DNA of 64,000 nt, from contig NZ_CP109598.1 in NCBI RefSeq assembly GCF_036327775.1, forward strand, positions 124,001 to 188,000, given 5' to 3'. Below, piece after piece: positions 6,308-36,300 of the stretch; within the stretch, counting starts at the first letter, position 1, and every line of letters begins with the position of its first letter. The stretch comes from Streptomyces sp. NBC_01498. GTDB lineage: Bacteria; Actinomycetota; Actinomycetes; Streptomycetales; Streptomycetaceae. The translations under genes were made by a program, and so were the position numbers. The notes beneath the pieces are model-generated. The model was given only the letters and a program-made list of their open reading frames with translations. It was not told where the DNA came from and did no database searches.

Positions 6308-9300
6308 TCAACTGCCGGGCGCACGGCCGCCGTCCGGCAGCCCCGTCAGCCAGTCGTCCACGGTCCGCGCCGTCGCGGTCGCGGAGTCCTCCAGCAGGGT
6401 GAAGTGGTCGCCGGGGACCTCGCGCAGGGTGTGCTCCGCCTCCCAGGTGGCACGCCAGTTGTCGGTGGCGGCGCCCGAGGCGAACGACTCGGCGGGGCGC
6501 ACGAACAGCACGGGGGCGGTGAGCGCGCCGGGCGACCGGTCGAGGATGAGTTCGCTGTAGCGGCTCATGGCGGCGAGGCGCGGGGCGCTGAACCCGCCGA
6601 AGCTGTCCTCCCGGTCGAGCATGCCCGCGAACATCTCCCGCCACAGGCCGTCGTTCCCGGCGCCGTCCGGGCCAGGGGCGTCCGGCAGATAGGTGTCCAG
6701 CAGGACGACGCCGTCCGCCGGGGTGCCGGCCTTCTCCAGGGACTCCGCGACGGCGTGCGCGAACTGGCCCCCGGAGGAGTAGCCGAGCAGCACGAACGGG
6801 GCGTCACCGGCGGCCTGCCGGGTCCCTTCCACGAGGACGTCCACGACGGCGTCGAAGGAGAGCGGCAGCGGCTCGTCACGGCCGAAGCCGGGGACGGCGG
6901 GCACCGCGACCTCGGTACGGCCGTGGAAGTGCGCGGCGAAGCGGGCGTACTGATGGGCGCCGCCGAGCGCCATGGGCGAGGGCACACAGATCAGGCGGCG
7001 GGGCGCGGGACCCCGGGAGAGGCGCACGGGCGGGGCGAGCCGGCCCAGTTCGGCGACGGTGGTGAAGCCGGGCAGGATCGCGGCGATCGCGCCGAGCAGG
7101 TCCAGGCCCTTCGCCATCCGGCCACCGGCGGCGGCCATCCGCAGCAGTCCGCTGACGGACTCGCGGTCCGGGGCGGCGGGAGCGGCGGGGGCCGTCTCCG
7201 GCTCCCCGGTGGGGGTGTCGCTCCCCCGGTCCGCCGGGGCGGGGCCGCCCCGGGCGAACTCCTCGTGCAGGACGGCGGCGAGCCCGGCGGGCGTGCCGTG
7301 GTCGAAGACGGCTCCGGTCGTCAGGGCGACGCCGGTGGCGGCGCGCAGCGCGCCGCGCAGTTCGGCGGCGGTCACCGAGTCCATGCCCGCTTCGAGGAAG
7401 GGGGTGTCGGCGCCGATGCCGCCGTCCGGGGCGTAGCCGAGCAGCGCGGCGGCCTCGGCGCTCACCAGTGCGGTCAGCGCCTCGGCCGCCTCGGCGGGGC
7501 CGAGCCCGGCGAGCCGGTCGCGCAGCGGCTCCGGCCCGGCGGCGGGGTCCTGCGGCGCCTGCCCCGGGGTGTCGAGGGCGGGCGCGTTCAGGGCGACGTC
7601 CGCGGGGATCCAGTAGCGCTCGTGGCGGAAGGCGTAGGCGGGCAGCGGCGCCACCGCCGTACCGGGGAACGGTCCGGTCCAGTCGGGTGCCGCGCCGTCC
7701 GCGTACAGGCGGGCGATCCCGGTCGCGAGGGCGGCGCTCTCCGGTCCCTTGCGGCGGCCGAGGGCGACGAACACGGCGTCGTCGGCGACCGCGCACTCGC
7801 GTGCCATGCCGGTCAGGACCGCGTCGGGGCCGACCTCCACGAAGCGGCCGACGCCGCGTCCGGTGAGGGTCCTGACGGCGTCGGCGAACCGGACGGGCTC
7901 GCGCACGTGCCGGACCCAGTACGCGGGGTCGGTGAGCAGCCCGGGTCCGGCGAGTTCACCGGTGACGCCGGAGACGAGCGGGATGCGCGGCTCGTGGAGA
8001 ACGACGGTCTCGCAGACCGCGCGGAAGTCGTCGAGCATGCCGTCCATCAGGGCGGAGTGGAAGGCGTGCGACACGGTGAGCCGCCTGGTCCGGGCGAAGT
8101 GCCCGGCGACGGCCAGGACGGCCTCCCGCTCGCCCGAGACGACCACGGAGGAGGGGCTGTTGACGGCGGCGATGTCGGTGCCCGCGCCGAGCAGGGGGCG
8201 GATCTCGTCCTCGGTGGCCTGGACGGCGACCATCGCCCCGCCCTCCGGGAGCGCCTGCATGAGCCGGCCCCGGGCGGCGACCAGCCGGCCGGCGTCGGCC
8301 AGGGACAGGACGCCCGCCACGTGCGCGGCGGCGAGTTCGCCGATGGAATGCCCGGCGAGGTGGTCGGGCCGCAGGCCCCAGGACTCCAGCAGGCGGTAGA
8401 GGGCGACCTCGAAGGCGAACAGGGCGCTCTGCGCGTACCGGGTGCGGTCGAGCGCCGCGCTGTCGGTGCCCGCGAGGACCTCGCTCAGTCCGATGCCCAG
8501 CGCCGCCTCCGCCTCGTCGAAGGCGGCGGCGAACACCGGGTGGTGGGCGCGGAGTTCGGCGCCCATGCCGAGCCGCTGCGCGCCCTGGCCGGTGAACAGG
8601 TACGCGGTGCGGGCCTTGGCGCGGGTACGGCCCCGGACCACCGCCGGGGTGCTCTCCCCGCGCGCGAGGGCGTCCAGCGCGGCGAGGAGCGCGGTCCGGT
8701 CGGTGCCGGTGACGGCCGCCCGGTGGGCGAAGGCGGTACGGCGGGTGCCGAGGGCGCGCGCCACGGCGGCGGGGGTGTGCGCGGGGCGCGCGGCGGCGAA
8801 GTCGCGGAGCCGGGCGGCCTGGGCGGTGAGGGCCTCGGGGGTGCGGGCGGACAACGGCCAGACGACGACGGGCGGTTCGGCCGGTTCGGGGTCCGGGGCC
8901 GGGGGTGCGGGCGGGGCCTGTTCGATGATGACGTGGGCGTTGGTGCCGCTGATGCCGAAGGACGACACCCCGGCGCGGCGCGGGCGGTCCGCCTCGGGCC
9001 ACGGCCGTGGCTCCCGTACCAGTTCGACCGCGCCGTCGGTCCAGTCGACCTGGCGGGACGGCTCGTCGGCGTGCAGCGTCGCGGGCACGACGCCGTGCCG
9101 CATGGCGAGGACCATCTTCATGACGCCCGCGACACCGGCGGCCGCCTGGGTGTGGCCGAGGTTGGACTTGACCGATCCGAGGAGCAACGGCGCCCCGTCG
9201 GGGCGTCCTTGGCCGTACGTCGCGAGGAGTGCCTGGGCCTCGATCGGGTCGCCGAGCGTGGTGCCGGTGCCGTGTCCGTCGACCACGTCCACGTCCGCGG

Positions 9301-33800: not shown

Positions 33801-36300
33801 CGCCGAGGCAGTCGCGGGCCATGGCGGTCAGGACGGCGTCGGGGCCGAGTTCCACGTAACGGCGGGCGCCGAGCGTGTGCAGCGCGGCGACGGCGGCGGC
33901 GAAGCGCACCGGTTCGCGTACGTGCTCCACCCAGTAGCCGGGGGTGGCGACCTCGGCGTCGGCGGGGGCGCCGGTGAGCGCCGACACGAAGGGGATCACC
34001 GGCGGGTGGAAGGTGAGGGTGTCCACGACCCGGGCGAAGTCCTTCAGCATCGGCTCCATCAGGGCCGAGTGGAAGGCGTGCGAGACGGTCAGCCGGCGGC
34101 TCTTGTCGAACCGGGCGGCGACGGCGTCGACTTCGGCCTCCGCCCCCGAGACGACCACGGACGCGGGCCCGTTGACGGCGGCGAGGGACACCCCGTCCGT
34201 CAGGTACGGCGCCACGTCCTCCTCGGAGGCGCGGATCGCGGCCATCGCGCCGCCCGCCGGGAGCGCCCGCATGAGCCGGCCGCGCGCGGTGACGAGCGTG
34301 ACGGCGTCCTCCAGGGAGAGCACGCCCGCCGCGTGGGCGGCGGCGATCTCGCCGACGGAGTGCCCGGCGAGCAGGTCGGGGCGCACGCCGAGCGATTCGA
34401 GGAGCCGGAAGAGGGCGACCTCCACGGCGAAGATCGCGACCTGCGCGTGGTCGGTGCGGGTGAGCCGGTCGGCGTCGCCCTCGATCAACTCCGCGAGGGG
34501 GTGGTCCAGTCCGGGGTCCGCGAGGGCGGCCACGGCGTCGAACGCGTCGGCGAACACCGGGAAGGCGGCGCACAGTTCGCGGCCCATGCCGACACGCTGC
34601 GCCCCCTGGCCGGTGAAGAGGAAGGCGGTGGTGCCGTCGGTGACGCGCCGCCCGGTGACGGTGTCGAGCGCGGCGAGCAGGTCGTCGGTGGTGGCGCCGG
34701 TGACGGCCGCCCGGTGGGCGTACGCCGTACGGGTGACCGCCAGCGCGTACCCGGTGTCGGCGGGGGCGGGGCGGCCTGCGCCGGGGCGGGTGAGGTACGC
34801 GCGGAGCTTGTGCGCCTGCGCGGTGAGCGCCTCGGGGGTACGGCCGGAGAGCACCCACGGCACGGTGGCGGGGCGGGGCGCGGAGGCGGTGTCCGGCTCC
34901 GCGTCGGCCTCGGTCTCGGGGGCCTGTTCCAGGATCAGATGCGCGTTGGTGCCGCTGATGCCGAAGGAGGACACGGCCGATCGGCGGGGCCGGCCGGTCG
35001 TGGGCCAGGGGCGCGGGGCGGTGACGAGTTCGACGGCGCCGGCGCTCCAGTCGACCTCGGTGGAGGGCTCGTCGGCGTGCAGGGTGGGCGGAACGGTGCC
35101 GTGGCGCATCGCCAGCACCATCTTCATCACGCCCGCCACCCCGGCGGCGGCCTGGGTGTGGCCCAGGTTCGACTTGACCGACCCGAGCAGCAGGGGGCGG
35201 TCGGCGGGGTGTTCACGGCCGTACGAGGCGAGCAGCGCGTGCGCCTCGATCGGGTCGCCGAGGGAGGTGCCGGTGCCGTGGGCCTCCACGACGTCCACAT
35301 CGGCGGGGGTGAGCCCGGCGCCGGCCAGGGCCTGGCGGATGACGCGCTGCTGGGAGGGGCCGTTGGGCGCGGTGAGGGTGCTGCTGGCGCCGTCGGAGTT
35401 GATGGCGCTGCCCTTGACGACGGCGAGGACGGGGTGCCCGTTGCGCCGCGCGTCGGCGAGCCGTTCGACGACCAGCATGCCGACGCCCTCGCCCCAGCCG
35501 GTGCCGTCGGCGGACGCGCCGAACGCCTTGCACCGGCCGTCCGGGGACAGGCCGCGCTGCCTGCTGAAGTCCACGAAGGTCTCGGGGGTGGACATGACGG
35601 TCACCCCGCCGGCCAGGGCGAGGGTGCACTCGCCGGACTGGAGCGCCCGTACGGCCCAGTGCAGGGCGACCAGCGAGGAGGAGCAGGCGGTGTCGACGGT
35701 GACGGCGGGGCCTTCGAGCCCCAGCGTGTAGGCGACCCGGCCGGAGGCGATGCTGGCGGCACTGCCGTTGCTGAGGTAGCCGTTCAGGTCGTCGGGGACG
35801 GTCGAGAGGCGGGTGGCGTAGTCGTTGTACATGACGCCCGCGAAGATCCCGGTCCGGCTGCCGCGCAGGTCGGCGGGGACGATCCCGGCGTCCTCGAACG
35901 CCTCGTGGCTCACCTCCAGCAGCAGGCGCTGCTGGGGGTCCATGGCCAGCGCCTCGCGGGGGCTGATGCCGAAGAAGTCCGGGTCGAAGTCGGCGGCGTC
36001 GTGCAGGAATCCGCCGGTGCGCGCGTACGTCCTGCCGGGCGTGCCGGGCTCGGGGTCGTAGAGCGCGTCCACGTCCCAGCCCCGGTCCGCGGGGAAGTCC
36101 GACACCGCGTCGGTGCCGCCGGCCACCAGGCGCCACAGCTCCTCGGGCGTGCTCACACCGCCGGGGTAGCGGCAGGCCATGCCGACGATCGCGACGGGGC
36201 CGTGGGCCCGCTGCTCCCACTCACGGAGCCGGGCCTTGGCCTCGCGCAGATCGGAGGCCGTTCGCTTGAGATAGTCGAGGAGTTGATCGTCGTTGTTCAC
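30877..36300 (-). CDS. Type I PKS, single module KS-AT-DH-KR-ACP (module 1 of this run)
   Basis: The 1807-residue PKS begins at the GTG at 36300, giving the docking helix [20 protein letters not shown]; no strong ribosome-binding site precedes it. The KS has active C206 (VDTACSSS), EAHGTGT and NLGHTQ, so it is a condensing KS, not a KSQ loading domain. The AT has S648 (GHSVGE) and HAFH, predicting malonyl-CoA. The DH has H945 ([10 protein letters not shown]) and DAVLH. The KR has TGGTGGLG near 1379, LLSS and GYAAAN, but reads VVDN where B-type KRs have LDD, so stereotype is unsure. The ACP has S1686. There is no ER, so an alkene is predicted. The N-terminal docking helix means an acyl chain is received from another PKS that is not in this window. 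It is the first gene of the leftward PKS operon. Confidence 0.96.

Follow-up and report, generated by a model that had tools for sequence, protein, structure and literature searches.

The 64-kb window analyzed here (G000:C1:124001-188000 of the 7.27-Mb single-contig genome of Streptomyces sp. NBC_01498) carries four modular polyketide synthase (PKS) genes, A to D. They lie on the minus strand between 36300 and 6308, are transcribed from right to left and encode six intact-looking modules. Coordinates prefixed C1 refer to the contig and all others to the window. We find that these genes very probably encode the last six of the ten modules of a macrolactam PKS of the sceliphrolactam type, as described for the sce cluster of Streptomyces sp. 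SD85 (PMC5785472). Domains were called with templates cut from A and D, and the calls for D, the four dehydratase (DH) and the six acyltransferase (AT) domains were cross-checked with Pfam. The genes and modules, with their ketosynthase (KS, motif in brackets), ketoreductase (KR), acyl carrier protein (ACP) and thioesterase (TE) domains, are as follows.

30877..36300, minus strand: gene A, sceQ-like, 1807 aa, module 5, N-terminal docking helix and KS(VMYN)-AT(malonyl)-DH-KR-ACP (domain templates)
26111..30877, minus strand: gene B, sceR-like, 1588 aa, module 6, KS(LMHH)-AT(malonyl)-KR-ACP, without DH and so read as hydroxyl (domain templates)
10384..26046, minus strand: gene C, sceS-like, 5220 aa, modules 7-9, three KS-AT-DH-KR-ACP (domain templates)
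20905..25953, minus strand: module 7 in gene C, KS(TNGQ)-AT(malonyl)-DH-KR-ACP (derived from aa 32-1714)
15841..20850, minus strand: module 8 in gene C, KS(VMYH)-AT(methylmalonyl, YASH)-DH-KR-ACP (aa 1733-3402)
10660..15768, minus strand: module 9 in gene C, KS(VMYH)-AT(malonyl)-DH-KR-ACP (aa 3427-5129)
6308..10255, minus strand: gene D, sceT-like, 1315 aa, module 10, KS-AT(malonyl)-ACP, then the thioesterase at 7003-6341 (templates and Pfam)

Modules 5-10 read in order as alkene, hydroxyl, alkene, methyl-alkene, alkene and ketone, followed by the thioesterase. An initial annotation of this DNA had given the same six-module domain reading with the same coordinates, and templates, Pfam and alignment agree with it. 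Its single methyl-alkene corresponds to the sole YASH-type AT in the window, that of the middle module of C (the other five carry HAFH by alignment), and its final ketone and TE correspond to the KS-AT-ACP-TE organization of D. The four DHs and six ATs of A-D all score above the Pfam cut-offs. In A, an N-terminal docking helix precedes the KS, which is of the extending type; the stop codon of A and the start codon of B share one base (TAATG), and no loading module is found within the 64-kb window. Because A-D each match genome G353, from the same genus, over their full length at 85-89% identity, we dismiss chance as the origin of this arrangement.

Four further modules and a starter cassette left of the window

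Two additional PKS genes lie on the same strand as A-D, 12-34 kb left of the window.

C1:111534-100696, minus strand: gene E, 3612 aa, an ACP-like domain, then two KS-AT-DH-KR-ACP modules (domain templates)
C1:100577-89928, minus strand: gene F, 3549 aa, two KS-AT-DH-KR-ACP modules with a methylmalonyl-type AT in the first (domain templates)

Together, E and F provide a loading ACP and four alkene (DH-KR) modules. The initial annotation had noted the Cys and docking helix of the first KS in A, had concluded that the starter comes from a docked protein outside the window, and had proposed a search left of base 1 for a loading PKS. E and F are what that search finds, with a loading ACP and docking classes that match. 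The accompanying statement that the line lacks a loading module holds inside the window but not for the line itself, and the supposed six-module line has ten modules, four of them supplied by E and F.

Every one of the ten modules keeps, by alignment, the KS Cys, and every DH and KR copy retains its catalytic residues (HxxxGxxxxP and the second-half Asp in the DHs; Tyr and Asn in the KRs). Minor deviations are a YGA in the DH of A where the others have YGP, and three KRs without LDD (VHD in the first module of E, VDN in A and LAD in module 8). In the full line, GHSQG/YASH ATs occur only in the first module of F and the second of C (modules 3 and 8), and the remaining eight carry HAFH.

The likely order of the line was read from its docking domains. 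When the whole genome was searched with the N-terminal docking family, five proteins matched at E <= 0.01, namely F, A, B, C and D. As the only PKS of the line without such a domain, E most likely comes first, and D alone among these genes carries a TE. The C-terminal tails, compared by eye and without a computed score, fall into two classes, (E, C) and (F, A, B); the N-terminal helices, also judged by eye, divide so that those of F and D pair with the tails of E and C, and those of A, B and C with the tails of F, A and B. This two-class match gives the order E-F-A-B-C-D. No sixth N-terminal docking domain of the same family was found genome-wide at E <= 0.01.

Between E and the window lie eight genes resembling VinH-O. 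They encode the E and B12-binding S subunits of a methylaspartate mutase, a PLP (pyridoxal phosphate) decarboxylase, two AMP ligases, a discrete ACP, an acyltransferase with a VinK_C domain and a proline-iminopeptidase-like hydrolase, and by family membership form a predicted complete cassette for making a 3-aminoisobutyrate starter from 3-methylaspartate. The best PDB sequences are 3wvn and 3wv4 for the 515-aa ligase, 5czc for the acyltransferase, and 8k4r and 6akd for the 565-aa ligase. We take 3wvn/3wv4 to be VinN, 5czc to be VinK and 6akd to be an aminoacyl ligase of the VinM type. The starter, an undefined group R in the initial annotation, is thus most likely, by its predicted genes, a beta-amino acid that would be extended by four alkene modules before reaching A. 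After the starter genes, on the plus strand, follow two P450 genes, a gene for a 63-aa ferredoxin with the motif pattern C-x2-S-x2-C...CP, and a type II thioesterase gene. At the left end (C1:86898-89765) is the gene of a LuxR-type regulator that also has an ATPase domain. No glycosyltransferase occurs among the Pfam-scanned non-PKS genes between C1:86.9 kb and gene D; one lies at C1:79780-80928, left of the stretch conserved in G353.

Correspondence to the sceliphrolactam cluster and its relatives

The sce cluster of SD85 has ten modules with apparently active domains in six PKS genes, methylmalonyl ATs in modules 3 and 8, and B-type KRs, KR6 included, with an (L/V)D(D/N) motif (PMC5785472). 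The line described here shares its loading ACP and ten modules in six PKS genes, its methylmalonyl ATs in modules 3 and 8 only, its KR-only module 6 with a B-type KR (LDD in B), and its last module with a TE and no reductive domains. Protein lengths for E/F/A/B/C/D (3612/3549/1807/1588/5220/1315 aa) are near those of SceN/O/Q/R/S/T (3626/3508/1824/1582/5150/1294 aa; PMC5785472), and A, B, C and D are the counterparts of sceQ, sceR, sceS and sceT. The sce cluster further contains starter genes sceF-M, ferredoxin gene sceC, P450 genes sceD and sceE, LuxR gene sceP, ABC genes sceV and sceW, kinase gene sceX and regulator gene sceY (PMC5785472); the starter cassette, two P450s, ferredoxin, LuxR gene, ABC pair and kinase/regulator pair are all present here. 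Unlike in sce, the PKS genes form two blocks, A-D and, 19 kb further left, E-F, the sceP-like gene is outermost, and a short-chain dehydrogenase (SDR) gene and the type II TE gene are additional. Neither an MFS transporter nor a thioredoxin-like gene (SceA, SceB) is among the Pfam-scanned genes, and SceU has no clear counterpart.

As a proxy for SD85 we used SirexAA-E, the source of the closest SceD homologue in the sce gene table (PMC5785472). The SirexAA-E cluster has an identical ten-module order, and of the 24 genes compared with those here, 15 show 65-80% identity. The initial annotation had recognized no fitting compound and suggested that the product may be new; it had named a characterized cluster with this module order as grounds for refutation, and the sceliphrolactam cluster is such a cluster. 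An apparently new product thereby becomes a probable known antifungal macrolactam, and a futile search for a triene acid is avoided. This is a cluster of a known type, ordinary apart from the question of iteration taken up below.

Several observations weigh against this correspondence. It is drawn from layout and from the SirexAA-E proxy, not from a direct alignment with SD85 sce, and some SirexAA-E identities are lower: 61% for MutS, 63% over 62% of the length for the permease, 58% for the SDR and for the discrete ACP, 56% for the ferredoxin and 52% for LuxR. The type II TE, kinase and regulator have no match in the SirexAA-E stretch, which ends inside the permease gene. The loading ACP of E scores 12 bits against the ACP template, with an intact GLDSL motif. 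The sce text assigns VinN to SceI, the ligase beside the ACP gene, and the ligase gene adjoining the ACP gene in the present cluster does not encode the one closest to 3wvn. The SDR and type II TE could alter the final product, and a collinear reading of the ten modules leads to a 24-membered ring.

Of the 17 cluster regions scanned, nine show the whole sce-type order of domains, with ATs of YASH type in modules 3 and 8: our own, G353, SirexAA-E, S. spinosus, G068, G051, G354, G254 and HB132. In SirexAA-E, G051, G354 and HB132 module 8 carries a "DH?" flag, so there the same plan means domain order and DH activity is unproven. In our own cluster, regular-expression AT motifs such as LAAH, VAAH, IAEH and VAGH (gene D) are artefacts, since the alignment reads HAFH, and so are the "KR?" flags. 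Of the other eight regions, seven differ and one, G362, is incomplete within the stretch retrieved. G370 and G400 (partial contig) were left out of these counts; in the latter, S. flaveolus, the A-B-C part is seen. Two of the relatives, G399 (S. filamentosus, L162-L165) and G268 (L206-L211), have nine modules; their front ends are similar and their KR-only module likewise has LMHH. Of 391 other genomes in the genus searched with the VinK-like protein, only one holds a copy above 90% identity (G353, 92%), and there the genes from LuxR through A are collinear with ours at 79-97% identity per gene. In the named collection, Streptomyces sp. NP-1717 has a 94% match, and the closest named relatives of the starter gene searched are mostly Streptomyces.

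Other published systems share parts of this layout. The JA74_sce cluster for streptolactam D also has ten extender modules, six PKS genes and two P450s, there for C-10 and C-12 (PMC12063178). Niizalactam C is the revised tripartilactam (PMC12159101), and both it and streptolactam D come from a sceliphrolactam-type 26-membered precursor, with later ring closures that differ (PMC12063178, PMC12159101). The verticilactam (vtl) cluster resembles ours in its eight starter genes, six PKS genes and P450-ferredoxin pair; its product is 24-membered. The pair has one P450, and the precursor at m/z 412.2484 (PMC11236979), C25H33NO4 by our calculation, has fewer carbons than are predicted here. Verticilactam itself was rejected as the product given the two P450s here and the three methyl branches predicted on a C26 or C28 skeleton; the vtl cluster (LC523631) entered this comparison by its description. 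The weddellamycin (wdl) cluster, to which those of bombyxamycin and piceamycin are related, likewise has six PKS genes, the same type of starter genes, a P450, a ferredoxin and a ketone beside a KR-only position, but differs in its eleven modules, inactive KR6, methylmalonyl specificity in module 8 alone and single P450 (PMC11051340). A weddellamycin-type assignment was rejected given ten modules, nine KRs that all keep Tyr, and two YASH ATs. The vicenistatin (vin) cluster shares starter biosynthesis, capping and loading logic (PMC11284099); its product is 20-membered and glycosylated and its PKS is different. Auroramycin, a glycosylated 24-membered lactam with glycosylation and sugar operon genes, was rejected as well, since the Pfam-scanned cluster genes here include no glycosyltransferase.

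Predicted product and the module probably used twice

Based on these comparisons, we hold with considerable confidence that the cluster makes a sceliphrolactam-type macrolactam from its ten-module line. Glutamate would be converted to 3-methylaspartate by mutase subunits E and S, then adenylated and loaded onto the discrete ACP in the manner of VinN and VinL. A VinO-type decarboxylation would yield 3-aminoisobutyrate, VinM-type capping would add an amino acid, and the VinK-type acyltransferase would pass the capped starter to gene E, whose N-terminus holds the loading ACP. Chain extension would then run through E, F, A, B, C and D in turn, with one A/B module working twice, once without reduction, to leave a ketone (C-13, our numbering) and then the C-11 hydroxyl. 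After VinJ-type removal of the cap, the TE of D would close the 26-membered lactam, the two P450s and ferredoxin would add two hydroxyls, and cycloaddition products may follow. The initial annotation had proposed release as a beta-keto acid; by analogy to vicenistatin-type clusters (PMC11284099), the chain most likely leaves the enzyme as a ring closed through an amide. VtlF and SceC converted verticilactam precursors in vitro, and the vtl ferredoxin speeds [4+2] closure as SceC did (PMC11236979); by this analogy, the ferredoxin here may also aid ring closure.

Eleven extensions with one extra ketone compute to C28H35NO4 ([M+H]+ 450.264), and two P450 oxygens bring this to C28H35NO6 ([M+H]+ 482.254), a formula that fits the molecular weight implied by "4 ug/mL, 8.3 uM" for sceliphrolactam (PMC8466457). 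We propose that the product is likely a polyene macrolactam of this formula with a 26-membered ring closed by an amide, and we expect it to be sceliphrolactam, streptolactam A or a close isomer.

The eleventh extension is the unusual element. The ten-module line of SD85 yields a 26-membered lactam that needs eleven extensions, and SceQ or SceR was proposed to act twice (PMC5785472). Were every module used once, as their complete appearance would allow, the line would instead give a 24-membered lactam with a C-3 ketone, a C-11 hydroxyl, a C4-C9 triene and a C12-C21 pentaene (C26H33NO3, 408.253, before P450 oxidation; 440.243 with two oxygens). This would be, to our knowledge, a new compound, and 24-membered lactams of the 3-methylaspartate type do exist, verticilactam for example. 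We nevertheless regard strict collinearity as improbable. The same ten-module plan gives 26-membered sceliphrolactam in SD85, where no other macrolactam was detected (PMC5785472), and the ten-module sce-like cluster of JA74 makes streptolactam D from the streptolactam A/sceliphrolactam skeleton (PMC12063178). By analogy with sce, collinearity probably fails at genes A and B, and A (SceQ) or B (SceR) probably acts twice.

Two further explanations fare worse. That A-D work as a stand-alone six-module line, releasing a methyl-branched triene beta-keto acid, whether free, cyclised or decarboxylated, built on an undefined starter, has in its favor a correct domain reading inside the window, but we give it very little credence: the same strand also carries the four modules of E and F, a loading ACP and a beta-amino-acid cassette, the docking tails fit, and the amine of the starter would offer the TE an intramolecular nucleophile. 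Least credible of all is an eleventh module supplied in trans, as an analog of the weddellamycin-type solution, in which wdl reaches a similar ketone/hydroxyl pattern through eleven modules, its KR6 being inactive (PMC11051340), given that the cluster holds no eleventh module, that the one-base A/B overlap leaves no room for a missing module between A and B, that the genome holds no sixth N-terminal docking-family match (other docking types at other PKS-like loci lay outside this search), and that the SD85 product survived an sceQ-sceR fusion, which argues against a trans-acting module (PMC5785472).

Seventeen AT-family matches were counted in the genome: ten in the line, one VinK-like, one FabD-like (in a 423-residue frame) and five at other PKS-like loci. 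These loci lie at C1:235346-244897 (L020-L021), 331-336 kb and 6.41-6.43 Mb, with the five AT matches at 242, 331-336 and 6415-6431 kb; one encodes a 3183-aa protein with KS, AT, KR and ACP matches and a thioesterase-like motif.

With one of A and B used twice as the preferred explanation, we looked to the KS motifs for which of them it is. VMYH tends to occur in enoyl-accepting KSs and TNGQ in D-hydroxyl-accepting KSs (PMC11321453). Along the line the motifs are AEIQ, VMYH, VMYH, VMYH, VMYN (A), LMHH (B), TNGQ, VMYH, VMYH and VMYH, which fit the expected substrates with B as a clear exception and A as a slight one. All nine complete sce-type lines scanned share LMHH in B, followed by TNGQ in the next KS. 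We tentatively suggest, at somewhat less than even chances, that the module used twice is module 6 (gene B, SceR) rather than module 5. Its KS would first accept the enoyl chain handed over by A and, in a second round, its own beta-keto product in unreduced form; LMHH in place of VMYH might reflect this dual role: the enoyl-linked methionine is kept and the tyrosine lost, as might be expected of a KS that also takes its own beta-keto product. Against this, LMHH occurs in 12 of the 164 KS domains of the 17 regions, nine of them sce-type module 6 and three elsewhere, namely in the KR-only modules of nine-module G399 and G268 and in one DH-KR module of G155. KR-only modules also carry LMYH (G050, G398, G155) or VVYH (G005, G165). 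The motif thus does not single out iteration, and some of the change may accompany KR-only modules in general. In a limited survey of literature later than PMC5785472, which did not include the tripartilactam pathway paper (Hwang et al. 2020), we recognized no answer as to which sce module iterates. The complete line and the eight others add cases of a modular PKS that seemingly breaks collinearity in a programmed way, and the set of nine opens the question of the iterating module to sequence-guided mutagenesis.

Neighboring genes in the window

Six further genes, or parts of genes, in the window flank the PKS block.

1..161, plus strand: 3' end of the stand-alone type II thioesterase gene (full gene G000:C1:123400-124161), absent from the SD85 sce table
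274..918, minus strand: response regulator with LuxR-type HTH, sceY-like (214 aa vs SceY 214 aa)
882..2273, minus strand: histidine kinase, sceX-like (463 aa vs SceX 433 aa)
2285..4810, minus strand: FtsX/MacB ABC permease, sceW-like (841 aa vs SceW 840 aa)
4810..5613, minus strand: ABC transporter ATPase, sceV-like (267 aa vs SceV 266 aa)
36603..37532, plus strand: short-chain dehydrogenase (SDR), absent from the SD85 sce table

The SDR gene is probably an extra tailoring gene of the cluster. It has 59-68% matches in seven of the eight other sce-type regions, that in G353 being split, and none in G051. In six sce-type regions its homolog sits no more than about 2 kb from the ferredoxin gene; in G353 and here the gene adjoins A.

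Further to the right, an apparent operon on the plus strand (38259-45129) encodes an unknown 473-aa protein, a VWA_CoxE protein, a MoxR-like AAA ATPase and an unknown 936-aa protein; it is 81-96% identical in G353, and its matches in a defence library are weak only. A protein with an NPP1 (necrosis-inducing protein) domain is encoded at 45315-46082 on the minus strand. At 51018-54320 on the plus strand lies a gene for an 1100-aa protein that combines a glucose/sorbosone dehydrogenase domain with PKD, CBM6 and FIMAH domains.

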